DNA from: a virus
Reading direction: 5' to 3' (one strand)
IMG/VR virus record: IMGVR_UViG_3300009705_000113
Span: 1-24,395 of that record
DNA length: 24,395 nt
Part shown: positions 15,792 to 23,640 of the stretch, piece by piece
Layout: each line of letters starts with the position of its first letter
Position numbering within the stretch: the first letter of the stretch is position 1
Translations under genes and position numbers: made by a program
The notes under the pieces: generated by a model
Told to the model about the DNA's origin: nothing
What the model saw: the letters and a program-made list of their open reading frames with translations, nothing else
Database searches by the model: none

Positions 15792-17102
15792 TTAATGAAT
15801 AAAGTATTGTCCTGTACTTCCGAACTCGTACCACATTCTCATCATTATAGCGTCTGCATAATCAGGACTTCTGCCTAATACTTCTTTAACTGCGTCTTTA
15901 TGTAGTATAGATAACTTACTATCCCTATCTATATTGGTTCTTCTTACTTGTTCTAGTTCTGCTATTGTTCTTTGCTTCACATCTATATCGTGTGTATGCA
16001 GACATATCTTATTATCATTTATAAGTTGTGCTAATTTGTAATAGCATTGTGTCTTTAGGTTTGCATAGTTCTCTTTCTTTAATGCACGGCTATTATTTAC
16101 AAAGCCCTTGCACCTAAGTATGTCTTTAACTCCTCCACCCACTCCGTCCTCGTCCACGATTACATTGTATAAAGCTACTTCATACTCTAATCGTAGTTTG
16201 GTAATTAAATCAGCTGCCTCAACAACGGTGTTTACGTCCATTTTAACGTACTTTAATACCTTTAACCCCCTCCACACTACAACAACTGTTTTGTCGTTCC
16301 CAAAACGAGCAATATCTGCACTGATAAAATGTGTATCTCCCTCTAAATCTCTGTCATCAAAAGCGTTTACAAGCCTATCATACTCCATTAACCTGTCATC
16401 ACTATCATCATACTCCCAATTTCCGTGTAGTAATCTTTCCTTAGATATTACATCTAACTTTTGTAGTTGTTCTTCATAGTGTTTTGATACGTGAGGATTG
16501 TCTGTAACTAAACTCTGTATAAACTTCCTATACTCTGGTAACTTACCTGCTTTGCTTGGACGGTAGAATTCTGTATAAACCCAATTCTTTGCAGGGTTAC
16601 AAGTTAATAGTATCTTCGGCATAAGTCCGTACTCATCTAACTTATATCTCAGACGTGAAGTCAATACCTGCTTTGCCTTTTCCTTTATCTGATTGCACTC
16701 ATCTACAAATGCACAAGTTAATTCAAGTGAGCCCAGACTATCGAAGTGAGGGTCTGAGGGGTAGAAGAACAAGTCTTTCAGTAATACCTCGCTACCATTA
16801 TAAAACTTTACTATAATACTACTTGCGTTGTATGTGTAATGCTCATTGATACGCAAACCAAATTGTCCACACACTTCAAAGAATGTATTAAGTGTAGTTA
16901 TCTTTAAGTTAGATAGTTTACTCCTGCCTATTAAACACCTGATACCTTTGTATTGTAGGCACATTGTTATTATCCAAGCACACCCTACCCAAGATTTACC
17001 TCCTCCTGCTGCACCCCCAAAAAGAACCTCGCTTGTTTCATTATCGTAGAGGTGCTTAAAGCAAGTCTTTTGTTTTATCGTCAGGTCTGGCTTTATCCTC
17101 AT
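15792..17102 (-). CDS. terL: Terminase large subunit (packaging ATPase/nuclease)
   Basis: A 436-aa protein with both terminase domains. ATPase: the Walker A GGAAGGGKS (residues 29-37), Walker B LTCAFVDE with D134/E135, and a coupling motif LLTCNP (165-170). Nuclease (RNase H-like): SADIARFG with D263, IVDEDG with D317/D319, and SPDYADA with D414/D417. The linker has a LLHGNWEY segment. All key residues are present. It packages DNA through the portal ring and cuts the concatemer. Its start overlaps the small terminase gene by 47 nt. In this genome the portal is not next to it but about 15 kb further on. Confidence 0.95.
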   Translation of the reverse strand: MRIKPDLTIKQKTCFKHLYDNETSEVLFGGAAGGGKSWVGCAWIITMCLQYKGIRCLIGRSKLSNLKITTLNTFFEVCGQFGLRINEHYTYNASSIIVKFYNGSEVLLKDLFFYPSDPHFDSLGSLELTCAFVDECNQIKEKAKQVLTSRLRYKLDEYGLMPKILLTCNPAKNWVYTEFYRPSKAGKLPEYRKFIQSLVTDNPHVSKHYEEQLQKLDVISKERLLHGNWEYDDSDDRLMEYDRLVNAFDDRDLEGDTHFISADIARFGNDKTVVVVWRGLKVLKYVKMDVNTVVEAADLITKLRLEYEVALYNVIVDEDGVGGGVKDILRCKGFVNNSRALKKENYANLKTQCYYKLAQLINDNKICLHTHDIDVKQRTIAELEQVRRTNIDRDSKLSILHKDAVKEVLGRSPDYADAIMMRMWYEFGSTGQYFIH

Positions 17103-17454
17103 CTAAGTTTATTTCTATTGTAATTCTTTCGTCTCCACTTGTTACATCTACTTGTTGTTTCTCATAATAACCTCTTGACTTCCCCTTACATTTTAGATAA
17201 AAGATAATGCTAGTAGGGTTTGGGTTATCTCCCTGCATAAGAGAATGTAATTGGCTTTCAGCAAAGTCCAATGCTATATTACTTACATCATCTACGTTTT
17301 TCTTAAACTCTAAGTCCTCCTTGTAGTATGTGTAAAATGTTGTCCTCCCTATATCTGATTGTCTACAAGCAGTTGTTACTACACCTAAACTTCTTTCAAG
17401 TGCAATTAGTAGTTTCTTTTTTATGTGTTCGGTTTTGTTCTCTTTATTACCCAT
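17056..17454 (-). CDS. terS: Terminase small subunit (candidate)
   Basis: A 132-aa protein. Residues about 10-45 form a helix-turn-helix (IKKKLLIALERSLGVVTTAC, then QSDIGRTTFYTYYKEDLEF), the DNA-recognition part of the small terminase. A helical middle with FAESQLHSLMQGDNPNPTSI and FYLKCKGKSRGYYEKQ follows, a sequence typical of phage small terminases, and an acidic tail. It overlaps the large terminase by 47 nt in another frame and the upstream zinc-ribbon gene by 8 nt. Confidence 0.85.
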   Translation of the reverse strand: MGNKENKTEHIKKKLLIALERSLGVVTTACRQSDIGRTTFYTYYKEDLEFKKNVDDVSNIALDFAESQLHSLMQGDNPNPTSIIFYLKCKGKSRGYYEKQQVDVTSGDERITIEINLDEDKARPDDKTKDLL

Positions 17455-17650: not shown

Positions 17651-17798
17651 TTCTTTTTGGTATTGATGTTCTTTCGTGTTGCCTTTCCTCATAGTTCTTC
17701 ATATTCTCTATAAGTTTATTGTCGTTCTTTTTCTTATCCATATAAAGATTAAAGAGTAATAGTGCTATAATACATATCAATCCTACTGTTTGTATCAT
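17637..17798 (-). CDS. 53-aa single-pass membrane protein
   Basis: An ATG at 17798 overlaps the stop of the IbrB-like gene (ATGA). The first ~19 residues are a hydrophobic span (MIQTVGLICIIALLLFNLY), followed by a Lys/Glu/Asn-rich cytoplasmic-type tail. The frame ends at 17637, 14 nt inside the next gene. The hydrophobic start and polar tail resemble small phage membrane proteins such as spanin-like or holin-like peptides, but no such role can be assigned and no lysin is in the window. Confidence 0.6.
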   Translation of the reverse strand: MIQTVGLICIIALLLFNLYMDKKKNDNKLIENMKNYEERQHERTSIPKRNDKI

Positions 17799-18451
17799 TT
17801 ATTCTTTTCTCTTAGTGCCTTTCTTTCATCTGCTATATGTTTCTTAAACTCTTTGTCTGTACCTCCGTGTGCCTCATACTTCTTTCTAAGTTTTATTTGG
17901 TCAGGAGTTTCCCACGCTTTTGAGATTACTTTATCCTTATATAATTTAGAGTAACCTGTTAGGTGTTTCAGTCGTATTAGTTCTTCCGCCTCCATACCTA
18001 ACTCATTACAAATATCTACATCTCCCCAACCATTCTCTAACATTGAGAATACCATATTTGCCATACCACTAACTGAATGTTTACCTCTTGCTCTATTATG
18101 TCTTACTGTACTTGCCATTCTATCGTTTATATCTTTCTCAATTACAACGATTGGCACCATTCCACCTGTACTCTCAGAAATATCTTTATTTGTTTTGCAA
18201 GTAAAGTATCTATGAAACCCATCTACAATAATATACTTATCTGTTTCTTCATCATAAATTGTAACTATCGGTTGAGTATAGCCATCGTGCTTTATACTCG
18301 TGTATAATAGTTTCATCTCTACTCTTGCAACACTATTAGGATTGTAGTCATTTGCCTGTACTTGTTCAAGCGGTACCCATTTCATCTTATTAACAGGGTG
18401 TTTATCTAAATCGGCTACCTCCTCTCCGTAAAAATTCTTTTTCTTAGTCAT
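17795..18451 (-). CDS. ibrB: IbrB-like ParB-domain protein
   Basis: A 218-aa protein with a ParB/sulfiredoxin-type domain: the opening strand WVPLEQVQANDYNPN (25-39), a helix to about 56, IVDGFHRYF with D77/G78/H80/R81, and the signature RHNRARGKH at 117-125. The RHNRARG stretch is typical of IbrB proteins, which are paired with IbrA; here the two genes overlap by 8 nt, the same pairing. In E. coli the Ibr proteins affect expression of eib genes; the biochemical activity is not established. ParB-type domains bind CTP or act as nucleases in other proteins. A helix-turn-helix region (GWGDVDICNELGMEAEELIR) follows, so DNA binding is likely. Confidence 0.8.
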   Translation of the reverse strand: MTKKKNFYGEEVADLDKHPVNKMKWVPLEQVQANDYNPNSVARVEMKLLYTSIKHDGYTQPIVTIYDEETDKYIIVDGFHRYFTCKTNKDISESTGGMVPIVVIEKDINDRMASTVRHNRARGKHSVSGMANMVFSMLENGWGDVDICNELGMEAEELIRLKHLTGYSKLYKDKVISKAWETPDQIKLRKKYEAHGGTDKEFKKHIADERKALREKNK

Positions 18452-19592
18452 ATATATATTTGTTTTTTAATTGTTGCTTGTGGTATTTCCCTACTTGGAA
18501 TTGCCTCCAACCGTGAACGGCAGGACCTTTCTCCCAATTATTAAGTTTAGTAAATTCATAGTCATTTATTATAATACTCTGTATCTGTACTTTGTATAAA
18601 GAGTTTAATTGTTTCATACCCTCATCTTCATACTTCAATTTAAGACGTGCTATTTCCTTTCTGAATTTATCCTGACTATCAGGTGGGAGCATATTGTCTA
18701 CTAAATAATCTCTATACTCAGCCCAATCTTCAAACATATAGGGTAATTCTTTCGGCATCTCATAACTTGCTTTGTTCATTTGCCCTGCGGTGTTAATACC
18801 TTTGAGCCGTTTAGTTAAAGCATTCCACGTATTCGGCTCAATTTCTTGCAGATAATATAGATGTGCTATTGCAGTTTCGTGGTGTACATTTGATACTCTC
18901 ATATTTCTATTAGGCACTCCGTACTGATAGAACCTGTCATAGATTTCGCAATAGTCTAAATCATTATCGTATATGTATTTCCATACATCATCTAACCTCC
19001 AATCATAAATAGGATATAATACCATTTGTTGCCTAGCCGTGCTATAACACCTCCCATAAGTCAAGTGCTTATAGGTTGCACCCTGTGTTAAAGCAACAAA
19101 TCTCGTAGGGCTCTCGTCTGTACGCACTCCTGCTAAATAACAAACCGATTTGTCTGGGTAATCTTTCTTTAATATATCTCCAAACAATTCTTTAAACCTA
19201 TACTGATTATAAGTATTCTCTTTAATACTGATAGGGTCTTTCTCTCTTATCCACTCCTTTCCCTCCTCCCAACAATTCAGCCAATCCTCCTCAGTTGAGG
19301 TAGAGTTTGTCATACTTAAAGGCATTTGATACCATAGTGGTTCTACATCTTCTCGGTACATTACACGCTTAACATAATCAATAGTCGCTCCCCACTCTGC
19401 CTCTTGGTCTATAAAGCATACCTTTAACGGAAGTCGCCCTAACTCCGTAGCAACTTCAAGTGCCACGTGAAACGTGCAAGTGCTATCTTTCCCACCACTA
19501 AAGCCAACTATAACCTCATCAAATTCGCTGAACAAATAATGCATACGTTTTTTTGCAGCTTCAATTACATTGTCTTTAAGATAGATTTTCAT
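18444..19592 (-). CDS. ibrA: IbrA-like PAPS-reductase-family protein (DUF3440 type)
   Basis: A 382-aa protein of the adenine-nucleotide alpha-hydrolase/PAPS-reductase superfamily. The PP-loop SGGKDS lies at residues 32-37, preceded by FDEVIVGF. Then come the FIDQEAEWGATIDYVKRVMY segment, CYLAGVRTDESPTRF, and YPIYDWRLDDVWKYI, all typical of IbrA and related proteins. Its C-terminal ~110 residues match the DUF3440-type extension by length. Enzymes of this superfamily activate ATP to adenylate a target before sulfur transfer or reduction; the target here is unknown. It is translated together with IbrB (8-nt overlap) and with the GNAT gene (17-nt overlap). Confidence 0.85.
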   Translation of the reverse strand: MKIYLKDNVIEAAKKRMHYLFSEFDEVIVGFSGGKDSTCTFHVALEVATELGRLPLKVCFIDQEAEWGATIDYVKRVMYREDVEPLWYQMPLSMTNSTSTEEDWLNCWEEGKEWIREKDPISIKENTYNQYRFKELFGDILKKDYPDKSVCYLAGVRTDESPTRFVALTQGATYKHLTYGRCYSTARQQMVLYPIYDWRLDDVWKYIYDNDLDYCEIYDRFYQYGVPNRNMRVSNVHHETAIAHLYYLQEIEPNTWNALTKRLKGINTAGQMNKASYEMPKELPYMFEDWAEYRDYLVDNMLPPDSQDKFRKEIARLKLKYEDEGMKQLNSLYKVQIQSIIINDYEFTKLNNWEKGPAVHGWRQFQVGKYHKQQLKNKYIYD

Positions 19593-19956
19593 ACCTGATT
19601 TTTGTTATTCCGTTTTTATATACTTTGATTACATCTGCTCCCATTTGAACGTGTGCTCCAATAGACATCTCGGTACAATGTCCGTGTAAATATCTTATCC
19701 CCCTATCAAAAGCCATCTGTTTTTTCATAGGGTATACTTTTAAGTACAAACCTTTACGTCTATACTCAGGGAATATCCAATCTGATTTAGAGGTTGCGTC
19801 TTGTCCTTTGTATAGTACGGCTCCAAAGCCAAAAAACTCTCCATCAATATAAAACCCATAGTAATCTGAGTTGCTTGAAAAGAGTATGCCGTCTTTCTCA
19901 GCAGGTTTTTGGTAGTGCTTTATACTATCCCAAAGTATCTCCTTACATTCTATCAT
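19576..19956 (-). CDS. Short GNAT-family acyltransferase
   Basis: A 126-aa protein with the GNAT fold signs: a beta hairpin with YYGFYIDGEFFGFGAVLYKG, a central WIFPEYRRKGLYLKVYPMKK carrying the CoA-loop motif (R-R-K-G), and a final GADVIKVYKNGITKIRYE. It is short for a GNAT but includes the CoA-binding core. Neighbours are a DNA methyltransferase (overlap ATGA) and the IbrA-like gene, so a substrate that is DNA, RNA or a modified base is conceivable; Mom of phage Mu is a precedent for a GNAT-fold enzyme acting on DNA. Ordinary small-molecule or protein acetylation is equally possible. Confidence 0.75.
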   Translation of the reverse strand: MIECKEILWDSIKHYQKPAEKDGILFSSNSDYYGFYIDGEFFGFGAVLYKGQDATSKSDWIFPEYRRKGLYLKVYPMKKQMAFDRGIRYLHGHCTEMSIGAHVQMGADVIKVYKNGITKIRYENLS

Positions 19957-20603
19957 TCGTTATGAAATTTCATTGGAAGTTTTGCTATTGCTTTTTCTAA
20001 TCTTGCAGCATTCAGTTCGTTCCCTATAATATCAAAGCCGTATTTATCTAGGACTTTTGCATAATATCCTATCCCTACGAACATTTCAAGACAACTTCTG
20101 AATTTACCCTTGAACATTTCGCATACTGTTTTCAAACTTTTAATACCATTCTGTCCGTTTAGTTCTGAGAAGTCTCGCACCTCTGCATTATTTAGAGTAA
20201 CTATGATTATACAATTCTCATACCACTTGCTACCTGATTGATACTTCTTCTTTATATACTGTACATCTTTCACGTTAGGTTTCGCTTTGAACTTCTTCAT
20301 TAAACTTTCCGCCTCTCTTATTCCGTATACTATGAAAGCGTAGTTGATTACGTTATCACAAATAGTATCTGCAACAATTACCTCCAACTGCTCTTGGTCT
20401 AGTTGCTCAGTCATATTTATTGGGTTGGCTTTATTGTTCATTGTTTTCCAATAGTTAAGATTTCCTGTTCCCCAAGGAGGGTCGGTGTAGCAAAAGTCAA
20501 TTCCCTCAGGGTATCTCTCTTTTATCATCTCATTTACTTGGGGGTGGTTTATACCTCCTTGTGTGAAATAATGTTTTCCGTGCTTGTGTTGTACTTTGTT
20601 CAT
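19953..20603 (-). CDS. DNA methyltransferase, permuted DPPW type
   Basis: Motif IV DPPWGTGN lies early in the protein (near residue 41 with the chosen start) and a motif-I-like EMFVGIGYYAKVLDKYG, then NELNAARL, lies near the C-terminus. This order is a circular permutation typical of beta-class amino-methyltransferases (N6-adenine or N4-cytosine). A second ATG 24 nt upstream (20627) would overlap the previous gene; I prefer 20603, with ACTAAAACT just before it and a 4-nt gap. Its length (about 216 aa) leaves little room for a target-recognition domain. Partners may supply specificity, notably the ParB-like protein two genes upstream. It overlaps the GNAT gene by 4 nt. Confidence 0.8.
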   Translation of the reverse strand: MNKVQHKHGKHYFTQGGINHPQVNEMIKERYPEGIDFCYTDPPWGTGNLNYWKTMNNKANPINMTEQLDQEQLEVIVADTICDNVINYAFIVYGIREAESLMKKFKAKPNVKDVQYIKKKYQSGSKWYENCIIIVTLNNAEVRDFSELNGQNGIKSLKTVCEMFKGKFRSCLEMFVGIGYYAKVLDKYGFDIIGNELNAARLEKAIAKLPMKFHNE

Positions 20604-20607
20604 AGTT

Positions 20608-20955
20608 TTAGTCTTTAGAAAATTCATCTACATTATATTTAGGGTTTAGCATTGTGAACTCCTCGTCTGGTATCGGCTCCACAACTTTCGCCCTGTTAAT
20701 TAGTTTTGTTGTTGGTAGGTCATAGCCCATAGTCCAATACTTATATCCGTCAAGGTAATAGTATATATAATACTTGCCATAATTCCAATGCTCTCGCTTT
20801 CCGTTGTCCCTTATAAATTGTACTACCGCTTCAAATGTTTTCCTACTACCCCAATCATAAAACATAGTATAAGCGTGGGGGTCTTTCGGCATACTTTTAG
20901 CAAACTTATAATCTTTGCCCTTTAATAATCTGTCTGCTTTTTCTTTATTCATCAT
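20608..20955 (-). CDS. Hypothetical protein next to the methyltransferase, 115 aa
   Basis: A 115-aa protein starting MMNKEKADRLLKGKDYKFAK, with WGSRKTFEAVVQFIRDNGKR in the middle and YYIYYYLDGYKYWTMGYDLP after it. Rich in Tyr and Trp, compact, without membrane segments or cysteines. I recall similar Tyr-rich proteins (with a YKYWTMG-like stretch) beside phage methyltransferases, but know of no function. It lies between the ParB-like gene and the methyltransferase, 4 nt from the latter, so a helper or specificity role can be imagined. Two adjacent ATG codons are possible starts. Confidence 0.7.
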   Translation of the reverse strand: MMNKEKADRLLKGKDYKFAKSMPKDPHAYTMFYDWGSRKTFEAVVQFIRDNGKREHWNYGKYYIYYYLDGYKYWTMGYDLPTTKLINRAKVVEPIPDEEFTMLNPKYNVDEFSKD

Positions 20956-20973
20956 ACCAAGATACGCTTTTAT

Positions 20974-21507
20974 TTATTGAATGCCAAATTCATTTCCACA
21001 TTCTGGACATATTATTTCTCTTGTTGCCTCAGCCATTTTATTCATTCTTTGCTCCATTTCATTTGTACGTCTATCAAATTCTTTCTGAGTGATTTCGTTG
21101 TCCCCACTCTCAGGGTCATAGTTTGGTATGTACCCTGTTGTTTCTCCCTGCCAAACATCTATACCCCAATCTGCAATCTTTACATTGTCCCAATCATTAG
21201 CAAGTAAAGCCCAATCCCACTCTCCTGACTGAACATTATCCTTAATCATAAACTCTTTTTGTTTAGCGTCATTCAAATCTTTAGCTATAATTACAGGCAC
21301 CTCTTTTAAACCCACCTCTCTACAAGCTCTATACCTCATATTCCCTCCAAGTATCTCCATTTTCTCATTGACTATGATAGGTCTTAACTCTAACATCTCA
21401 GGAAAATCTTTAATACTTTGTACTAATTTCTTGTACTTCTTATCCTTTATCATTCTAGGATTGTTTTCTGTTGGCTTAATGCTTGTTAGTTTCTCTCGTG
21501 TTATCAT
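20974..21507 (-). CDS. ParB-like protein with C-terminal CxxC
   Basis: A 177-aa protein. Residues 1-90 form a ParB-type domain: the SIKPTENNPRMI opening (9-20), a helix with YKKLVQSIKDFPEM, and the ILGGNMRYRACREVG motif (52-66; G54, G55, N56, R58). A middle with GEWDWALLANDWDNVKIADWG follows, as in phage ParB proteins that are often fused to a methyltransferase. The C-terminus ends ICPECGNEFGIQ with C167/C170, half of a zinc finger. In this genome it is a separate protein from the methyltransferase. It overlaps the 78-aa gene by 4 nt. Confidence 0.82.
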   Translation of the reverse strand: MITREKLTSIKPTENNPRMIKDKKYKKLVQSIKDFPEMLELRPIIVNEKMEILGGNMRYRACREVGLKEVPVIIAKDLNDAKQKEFMIKDNVQSGEWDWALLANDWDNVKIADWGIDVWQGETTGYIPNYDPESGDNEITQKEFDRRTNEMEQRMNKMAEATREIICPECGNEFGIQ

Positions 21508-21903: not shown

Positions 21904-22294
21904 TATATAATTTATTTATTCCCTCCCTTACGTTTTTATGACAACTTCCACAAGTTGTGTTAGTAGCATAGTTTGTTCCGTATATAGTATTATGCAGAGT
22001 TATCACTCTTTGCTTATTATCGTTCTCATTTAAGTTTCCGCTTTGAAGTGCTTTATACAATTCTATTATTTCCTCCCTAAACTCTGGCGGAACCTGTAAT
22101 GTATTTTCGTTTACCTCTACAATTCTATCCCACTTCCTGTTATTTGTGTCGGCACATTGCATAGTAGCAATAGCAGTTTTTACTTTCATAAAACAACCAC
22201 ATAATTTGCAGTTACCTAAAAATGAATGGTAATGCTCACACCCTTTACAGATGTCTAGTCTCTCTTTCCTTATCTCCTTACTTGCGTAGAACAT
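21866..22294 (-). CDS. Zinc-motif protein with N-terminal DUF6171-like fold, 142 aa
   Basis: Two cysteine modules. Near the start, C16-x2-C19, then C29-x2-C32-x-C34 and C47 (ICKGCEHY, NCKLCGCFMKVK), a pattern I associate with DUF6171-type phage proteins. The middle contains VPPEFREEIIELYKALQSG, and the C-terminus has a second pair C115-x2-C118 (TTCGSCHKNV), followed by a helix. The second module is a separate CxxC element seen in many Bacteroidota phage proteins. Function unknown; nucleic-acid binding is plausible. Overlaps the sigma-like gene by 17 nt. Confidence 0.7.
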   Translation of the reverse strand: MFYASKEIRKERLDICKGCEHYHSFLGNCKLCGCFMKVKTAIATMQCADTNNRKWDRIVEVNENTLQVPPEFREEIIELYKALQSGNLNENDNKQRVITLHNTIYGTNYATNTTCGSCHKNVREGINKLYNEIQGDKGGAKE

Positions 22295-22838
22295 CTTTTA
22301 TGTATTTTCTTGCACGTTTAATTGTCTTGAACAAACTCCCTCTTGGAATTCTTGTTTCTTCGTGTAGTGTGTCTAGTGTGTTTCCTTTATAATAATACCG
22401 GTATAGTATTTCTTTATCATACCAATACATTTTTGCCATAGTCTCCTCTATATCATCTATCAGTATATCTTTTAAAGGTCGGCTATCATTAGGTATGTTG
22501 GCTAACATATTTCTATTGTCAAAAGTATCGTCTGCATATCTATCATCTATAATTGTATAGTACTTATTATAAAGAGAGTAAAACTTATTCTTCTTACTAA
22601 TACAGGCACGTCTTATAATTATAGCGGAATAACAATGTATGCCCTCCAATCCATCTTTATTATAAATATCTCTCAGAGTGTGAGGGTTCATACTTAATAA
22701 TGCCATCATAGTTTCCTGCACCAAATCATCTATCTTATTTTTGTCCGTTGTAAATAGTCGGCACATATCTTCAAACTTAGGACGTGATAGCCCTATCTCA
22801 ATGTGTATCTTAGAATTATCCAATTTATTCTTTTTCAA
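22278..22838 (-). CDS. Phage-encoded sigma-70-like factor (ECF-like)
   Basis: A 186-aa protein. A region-2-like helix (NKIDDLVQETMMALL, about 34-48) and a region-4-like helix-turn-helix at the C-terminus (GNTLDTLHEETRIPRGSLFK, then TIKRARKYIKDVL) match the small two-domain sigma factors. A linker with DDIEETMAKMYWYDKEILYR joins them. The start is a TTG at 22838; the first in-frame ATG is codon 25, and the preceding in-frame codon but one is a stop, so TTG (or another TTG at codon 6) must be used. It is translated together with the upstream gene (14-nt overlap). It could redirect host RNA polymerase to late phage promoters. Confidence 0.75.
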   Translation of the reverse strand: MKKNKLDNSKIHIEIGLSRPKFEDMCRLFTTDKNKIDDLVQETMMALLSMNPHTLRDIYNKDGLEGIHCYSAIIIRRACISKKNKFYSLYNKYYTIIDDRYADDTFDNRNMLANIPNDSRPLKDILIDDIEETMAKMYWYDKEILYRYYYKGNTLDTLHEETRIPRGSLFKTIKRARKYIKDVLRK

Positions 22839-23232: not shown

Positions 23233-23640
23233 TTAGTTATCAATACCTTGTGTTAGCAACTGCACTTTTGCAGTATACTCCTTGATTAACTCGTCATAGT
23301 CGCAACGCATAAATTTGACAGTAGTCCTTGATAATCGTTCTAATCTCTCAGACGTTCCCTCTTGGTATCTTAAGTCTAGTAATTTACTGAAAGCGTATTG
23401 TTGTCCTTGCATAAACATATTACATTTTACACACTGAACCTGACAATTTTGTTCGTGAAATCTTGTTGGTAAATATCTTCTACTTTGAAAGTGTCCGCAT
23501 TGTAATTTTTTCCAATGGTCTTTCTTATCACAGGTAAAGCAGGTTACATACCCCTGCTCATCTGCCGTTCTCATTCTCACAAATACTGAGAATATCTTAT
23601 CTAATTGTTTCTTTAGTGCTGATAATGTTTTGTTCCCCAT
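23233..23640 (-). CDS. ninG: NinG/Rap-like recombination nuclease
   Basis: A 135-aa protein with the NinG zinc-and-HNH-like core: C34-x2-C37 (TCFTCDKK), CGHFQSRRYLPTRFHEQN (48-65) and C70-x2-C73-N74 (CVKCN). The N-terminal helix is basic and the C-terminal half is helical (QYAFSKLLDLRYQEG, then YDELIKEYTAK). NinG (Rap) of lambda is a Holliday-junction-targeting endonuclease of phage recombination. All key Cys/His residues are in place. The start is supported by a leader-motif copy 5 nt upstream. Confidence 0.85.
   Translation of the reverse strand: MGNKTLSALKKQLDKIFSVFVRMRTADEQGYVTCFTCDKKDHWKKLQCGHFQSRRYLPTRFHEQNCQVQCVKCNMFMQGQQYAFSKLLDLRYQEGTSERLERLSRTTVKFMRCDYDELIKEYTAKVQLLTQGIDN

Follow-up and report, generated by a model that had tools for sequence, protein, structure and literature searches.

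The ybdN and ybdM genes of Escherichia coli K-12, known elsewhere as ibrA and ibrB, encode a DUF3440/PAPS-reductase-like protein (PAPS, phosphoadenosine phosphosulfate) and a ParB-like protein (PMC9068703), and phage IbrAB have been reported to be co-activators or, possibly, factors of virulence (PMC4541368; PMC4490671). The same arrangement, i.e. a PAPS_reduct plus DUF3440 protein beside a ParB-like protein, as also seen in pairs of the families PHROG 2302 and 2159, is found in a 24.4-kb viral contig from IMG/VR (record IMGVR_UViG_3300009705_000113, positions 1 to 24,395), the whole of which is referred to here as the window. Whereas the known pairs have been described only as regulators, the pair in the window lies by the terminase genes in a cassette that also encodes a second ParB-like protein (ParB1), a 115-residue protein (u115), a methyltransferase with a DPPW motif (MT) and a GNAT acetyltransferase. 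Judged by sequence comparison, these genes constitute a conserved modular cassette, and we propose that it is probably an IbrA/IbrB-centred module for the hypermodification of nucleic acid, most likely of the phage's own DNA before packaging.

Several described systems share parts of this organization. The Dnd and BREX type 4 systems likewise combine a PAPS-reductase-like PP-loop enzyme (DndC, BrxP) with a partner of the ParB superfamily and act on DNA, but the PP-loop protein of the cassette has no conserved cysteines and is accompanied by other enzymes. Mom of phage Mu, a GNAT-fold protein that modifies adenine, provides a precedent for this fold in phage DNA modification; Mom is not known to have a PP-loop partner. 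In the Dpd 7-deazaguanine system a base-modifying enzyme (DpdA) has a ParB-like ATPase partner, DpdB (PMC12839542). Unlike Dpd, no TGT-like enzyme was seen in the cassette. Multi-enzyme hypermodification of phage DNA is already known in kind, and a literature search found no paper describing an IbrA/IbrB-u115-MT-GNAT cassette. Its novelty may be lowered by overlap with Iyer et al., who in 2013 reportedly predicted lysidine-like pyrimidines in phage DNA and bases made with derivatives of S-adenosylmethionine (SAM, AdoMet). We know of no experiment on these predicted bases.

Conservation and layout of the cassette

The genes of the cassette are linked beyond chance, as the linkage is kept in dozens of other contigs. 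A profile scan of IMG/VR with the PP-loop protein yielded 80 loci, and the close group consists of 36 non-redundant loci with 41-55% identity to the window. Within this group, IbrB was found at 36 loci, ParB1 at 33, u115 at 32, the large terminase subunit TerL at 29, GNAT at 14 and MT at 12; IbrB was nearby at 36/36 close-group loci and at 38/38 distant loci. Because these loci had been fetched by means of the PP-loop protein, reverse anchoring was performed on u115 and MT. A PP-loop gene was located within 4 kb of u115 in 55 of the 57 NR90 (non-redundant) viral loci, and within 4 kb of MT in 31/37 NR90 loci, five of the six misses being contigs that end near the anchor. As a rough background, any PP-loop match occurs in 216 of 50,697 isolated phage records; the compared loci are not fully independent, and hence no p-value is given. 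Conserved linkage in related phages, which the preliminary description of this DNA had set as a check on its proposal, is therefore strong in both directions.

All plausible genes of the contig lie on the minus strand, and the six open reading frames (ORFs) of the cassette were found at the positions and in the order previously described (21507-17795). ParB1 (20974..21507, 177 residues), which overlaps an upstream ORF of 78 residues by 4 bp, is followed by u115 (20608..20955, 115 residues), MT (19953..20627, 224 residues), GNAT (19576..19956, 126 residues), the IbrA-like PP-loop ATPase (18444..19592, 382 residues) and the IbrB-like protein (17795..18451, 218 residues). The overlaps noted earlier from MT through IbrB could be read directly from the sequence (MT/GNAT 4 bp, as ATGA; GNAT/PP-loop 17 bp; PP-loop/IbrB 8 bp). 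An overlap of 20 bp between u115 and MT holds only with the first ATG as start of MT; alignment of relatives suggests a probable start at 20603, 4 bp past the stop of u115, which would give a protein of 216 residues. Downstream of IbrB (17692-15792) follow an ORF of 81 residues, the gene for the small terminase subunit TerS (17056..17454; phrog_309 at 1.3e-7) and that for TerL (15792..17102), homologues of which are found downstream of IbrB at 29 of the 36 close-group loci. The cassette is thereby situated directly upstream of the terminase genes, with ParB1-u115-(MT)-(GNAT)-IbrA PP-loop-IbrB-TerS-TerL as the recurrent order. The position next to the terminase was not part of the preliminary description, and neither were the family status of the 115-residue protein, the exchange of enzymes among relatives and the link to host nucleases.

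Protein families of the cassette

The identification of the SGGKDS protein as IbrA-like could be substantiated, as it matches both Pfam PAPS_reduct (3.9e-18) and DUF3440 (1.4e-7) above cut-off, which is the architecture of IbrA. It falls in phrog_2302 (2.3e-91), a family named 'phosphoadenosine phosphosulfate reductase'. In an alignment of 139 relatives, the SGGKDS motif and residues D62, E64, G155, R157, E160, R164 and D202 are 99-100% conserved. The catalytic ECGxH motif of CysH was found in 0/139 of these relatives, none of their cysteines is near-invariant (the best column reaches 61%), and a CxxC motif is present in 4/139. Since the family has neither ECGxH nor a conserved cysteine, we infer that the protein is an ATP-using activating enzyme which is neither CysH nor a sulfurtransferase with a cysteine relay. 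Its AlphaFold2 (AF2) model, with a predicted local distance difference test (pLDDT) value of 88.5, has human FAD synthase as its nearest fold (3.1e-7), the next being PAPS/APS reductases including CysH (2.8e-5 and weaker), CysD (2.0e-4) and TilS, the similarity to the latter being weak (3.2e-4; template modelling score 0.31 by query). At some loci (L055, L070, L087, L204 and L205) two proteins of the PP-loop family are encoded close together.

The two ParB-like proteins belong to separate phage families, phrog_620 for ParB1 (1.5e-29) and phrog_2159 for the IbrB-like protein (1.8e-73), in agreement with the earlier view that they are different. ParB1 has a ParB_N domain (Pfam, 2.1e-10) and a C-terminal zinc-ribbon-like CPEC motif, with G55, R58, N91, C167 and C170 as conserved residues in 89 relatives; it also resembles the ParB part of the ParB-methyltransferase family phrog_498 (1.2e-28). 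The IbrB-like protein matches ParB_N slightly below cut-off (9.6e-6) and contains DGFHR and RHNRARGKH segments, of which DGxHR and NRARGxH are almost invariant among 117 relatives. Adjacency of the pair, with an 8-bp overlap in the window, extends to the non-redundant loci, IbrB being near the PP-loop gene in 131/133 and at no more than 150 bp in 105. By the features tested, the pair in the cassette can be assigned to IbrA/IbrB. Pairs of the distant group often adjoin a gene for an SF2 helicase-like protein (a cluster in 17 loci; L009, L010, L056, L059, L060, L066, L094 and others).

The u115 protein represents a new small domain family with the signature FAKxM..PHxY...YKYWTMG...INRA, in which A19, P26, H27, Y73, W74 and N87 are invariant (28-member alignment). 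No match was found in Pfam, PHROG or NCBIfam, nor any PDB match to its AF2 model (pLDDT 87) at E<0.1; the model does match one viral model, A0A516LRX9 (3.2e-10). Weak matches to spermine synthase (E about 0.6) were discounted as evidence. In a protein of 249 residues (L030:7255-8004), u115 forms the C-terminal part; inspection by eye suggests a GNAT-like N-terminal part (ARHKGHY), for which the family profile of GNAT scored below threshold.

The DPPW protein had been described as a permuted methyltransferase, and indeed TDPPWGTGN comes first and the motif-I-like EMFVGIGYY late, in the same way as DPPW precedes DPxCGxG in the alignment of relatives. The family profile matches the DpnA-like beta DNA adenine methyltransferase 5hfj in the PDB (4.3e-7, positions 21-196 of 198). 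With [DNS]PP[YFW] before the AdoMet-binding motif and the fold of a DNA methyltransferase, the family has the characteristics of beta-type amino DNA methyltransferases. No family match was obtained with the GNAT of the window by itself; its identity is supported via a relative (L038) that belongs to Acetyltransf_1 (1.7e-9), and via profile matches of the family to solved GNATs in the PDB (2.8e-13), including a polyamine acetyltransferase (2.1e-10). An R-x-x-G-x-G/A-like loop for coenzyme A and the GNAT fold are both found, and R66 is invariant in the family. Homology to Mu Mom was rejected after profile comparison with hhalign (probability 0.1%), so that the Mom analogy drawn earlier stands as a functional likeness, the GNAT family having no detectable similarity to Mom in sequence or profile.

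Searches of isolated phages for close relatives of MT, GNAT and u115 of the window gave none, and the methyltransferase or u115 of a relative as queries gave no matches there either. Pattern scans of IMG/VR with the methyltransferase alone and with GNAT alone were also without matches. The broad u115, MT and GNAT alignments proved too diverse for scans of this type; the relatives were obtained solely via the PP-loop profile and then via family alignments.

Enzyme exchange and the proposed function

Between the constant genes, the relatives carry various other genes, encoding an AdoMet decarboxylase (SpeD; AdoMet_dc at 3e-22), class I methyltransferases, two glycosyltransferase-like families (phrog_854 in 7/10 members; GT2 structures at 7e-4), a cupin-like protein and a further uncharacterised protein that is possibly dioxygenase-like, this name being a guess. 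The number of MT copies varies from one to three. On a PP-loop tree, the tailoring genes turn over frequently: the presence of GNAT requires at least 27 changes against a mean of 37 for shuffled data, and the glycosyltransferases 17 against 18.1 (GTa) and 8 against 7.9 (GTb), whereas u115 (19 versus 45) and MT (23 versus 44) track the tree more closely; these figures are approximate, since the tree was made quickly and is weakly supported in parts, and since the counts are inflated where contigs end. Fusions were found of u115 to class I methyltransferases (14 ORFs), of SpeD to u115 (2) and of a glycosyltransferase to the PP-loop protein (1, a protein of 644 residues; L044:2854-4788). In a second clade of phages with IbrA (L074, L079, L080, L081, L084 and L089), a cupin-like protein of about 267 residues is encoded upstream of the PP-loop gene, at a distance of about 800 bp, with a single change on the tree.

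Isolated phages also have such genes. The actinophage Microbacterium phage Hendrix carries two glycosyltransferases, a u115-methyltransferase fusion, GNAT and the PP-loop protein, in this order, at one end of its genome, and IbrB-ParB-ParB-TerL, i.e. three ParB proteins and the terminase, at the other. Its relatives Leaf, Dewdrop and Rasputia likewise have genes for the u115-methyltransferase and the PP-loop protein. In Arthrobacter phage Laroye and in a Bacillus phage, the PP-loop protein, ParB and a class I methyltransferase occur together, and the TerL homologue in Laroye is annotated as terminase large subunit.

The genes of the relatives, encoding a DNA-methylase-like methyltransferase, AdoMet decarboxylase, GNAT, glycosyltransferases and ParB and situated by the terminase, have the appearance to be expected of a putative base-hypermodification module. 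Gene content and conserved linkage thus lend partial support to the base hypermodification suggested in the preliminary description. We propose that IbrB and ParB1 would bind or clamp DNA and recruit the enzymes, and that the PP-loop protein would use ATP to adenylate a target oxygen, a base carbonyl being likelier than the backbone. An amine rather than sulfur would then replace the adenylated oxygen, as in tRNA lysidine synthetase; this step at a base carbonyl is proposed in view of the missing conserved cysteines and the amine-directed partner enzymes (GNAT, SpeD), and could be wrong. The u115 protein may hold or recognise the target nucleotide or its modified form. Alkylation of an exocyclic nitrogen by the DPPW methyltransferase would come next, and GNAT would acetylate an amine of the adduct. 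Related phages, which carry a class I methyltransferase, AdoMet decarboxylase (a supplier of decarboxylated SAM with which aminopropyl groups could be transferred) or glycosyltransferases in exchange, would decorate the common core in different ways, and the resulting modification would shield the phage DNA from restriction. DNA as the substrate, the order of the steps, their chemistry and the protection from restriction are all what we infer from the gene set.

Some observations weigh against this interpretation. Many IbrA/IbrB pairs, as in Streptococcus and Flavobacterium phages, have no adjacent tailoring enzymes, and none is present at 17 of the 133 non-redundant loci, which implies that the pair is functional by itself. 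Moreover, the fold neighbours of the PP-loop protein act on small molecules or tRNA, and the base-carbonyl step was chosen solely from the missing conserved cysteines and the amine-suited partners.

An alternative target would be the DNA backbone, with the PP-loop protein acting on phosphate like DndC or BrxP in a phosphorothioate-like system. The PP-loop protein has weak matches to DndC (3.9e-9) and BrxP (2.9e-8), and DndB of the Dnd systems is a member of the ParB superfamily (PMC10853773). DndC, however, relies on cysteines and an iron-sulfur centre (PMC10853773), for which the cysteine columns of the PP-loop family offer no counterpart, and methyl, acetyl and glycosyl transferases fit a base or an adduct better. 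Also, no cysteine desulfurase (DndA) or DndD/E-like gene was recognised among the recurrent families of the cassette, for which no dedicated profile search was made. Altogether this alternative appears unlikely.

Similarly unlikely is a regulatory role, in which IbrA/IbrB would be co-activators of gene expression, as has been suggested for E. coli, and the other genes would be unrelated cargo. Phage records do annotate IbrAB as co-activators of prophage gene expression, and ybdN-ybdM of E. coli K-12 is a regulated operon (PMC9068703), but the reciprocal linkage and the fusions with DNA-methyltransferase-like, SpeD, glycosyltransferase and u115 proteins speak against this role. An altered nucleic acid would likewise change expression, making the old phenotype compatible with modification.

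Action of the module on tRNA or other RNA is improbable, even though TilS, TtuA and other PP-loop enzymes of RNA are among the fold neighbours and four tRNA genes lie near the Hendrix cassette: the MT family is nearest to DNA rather than RNA methylases, no tRNA was found in the window, and the two ParB families (usually DNA-binding), the adjacent terminase and the link of u115 to GmrSD (see below) point to DNA. Finally, an auxiliary role in sulfur metabolism as a PAPS reductase (CysH), as the names PAPS_reduct and phrog_2302 would imply and as virome studies assume when they assign phage cysH to sulfur metabolism (PMC9301287), was rejected as very improbable, since a DUF3440 region takes the place of the ECGxH motif absent from the relatives and the neighbouring genes encode nucleic-acid enzymes instead of sulfur assimilation.

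In one virome study, cysH was the most abundant of those auxiliary genes in sediment that were 'not involved in DNA modification', and it has been listed as an auxiliary metabolic gene conserved among viruses globally and interpreted in terms of sulfur cycling (PMC9301287). Phage 'PAPS reductase' genes of the IbrA family have probably been misread as sulfur-metabolism genes; if they make up much of the viral cysH signal, the ecological claim of sulfur cycling needs revision. The hypermodification proposal would also give IbrA/IbrB, so far without a biochemical role, a specific and testable one in ATP-dependent nucleic-acid modification, for which Hendrix offers an isolated phage.

The u115 domain beside bacterial nucleases

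When u115 was used to scan bacterial genomes, the matches included four loci that hold the PP-loop cassette itself (L223, L228, L229 and L233), and ten loci of Bacteroidales in which u115 is fused or near to proteins with a GmrSD_N domain. The fusions are found in Segatella copri and other Bacteroidales (L226:8001-9833, with GmrSD_N at 1.6e-29; L227:8001-9860; L242:3874-6393; L244:5784-8258), and in L226 and L227 an additional GmrSD_N protein is encoded by the adjoining gene. A gene for a HIRAN domain protein often accompanies these loci. Nucleases of the GmrSD type attack modified phage DNA. At six other loci, from Alpha- and Gammaproteobacteria and one verrucomicrobial genome, u115 adjoins a gene for a PDDEXK_4-like nuclease (L254:8912-10009, L256, L247, L251, L258 and L261:6759-7967), mostly as a fusion with a class I methyltransferase, and u115 and this nuclease could possibly form an uncharacterised defence pair. 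Most of the bacterial genomes with u115 are metagenome-assembled, and there are further loci with u115 that lack both nucleases. The viral loci gave no match to the GmrSD_N and PDDEXK_4 nuclease profiles.

These associations are circumstantial evidence that u115 may bind a modified or target nucleotide and be used on both the phage and the host side. If so, u115 would mark both modification systems and the nucleases (GmrSD-type, PD-(D/E)XK) that may target them. A broader interpretation is possible, if on balance rather doubtful, namely a widespread and unrecognised class of phage DNA hypermodification. Here an ATP-using IbrA core would add an amine-bearing group to a base, and interchangeable enzymes would decorate it with methyl, aminopropyl, acetyl or glycosyl groups. 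As a recognition domain for modified bases, u115 would serve phages in building the modification and bacteria, through fusions with GmrSD-type nucleases, in detecting it, and phage 'cysH' genes of this family would be DNA-modification rather than sulfur genes.

Upstream of the cassette in the window, also on the minus strand, inspection by eye suggests a sigma-factor-like helix-turn-helix protein (22278-22838) and a NinG-like zinc protein (23233-23640).

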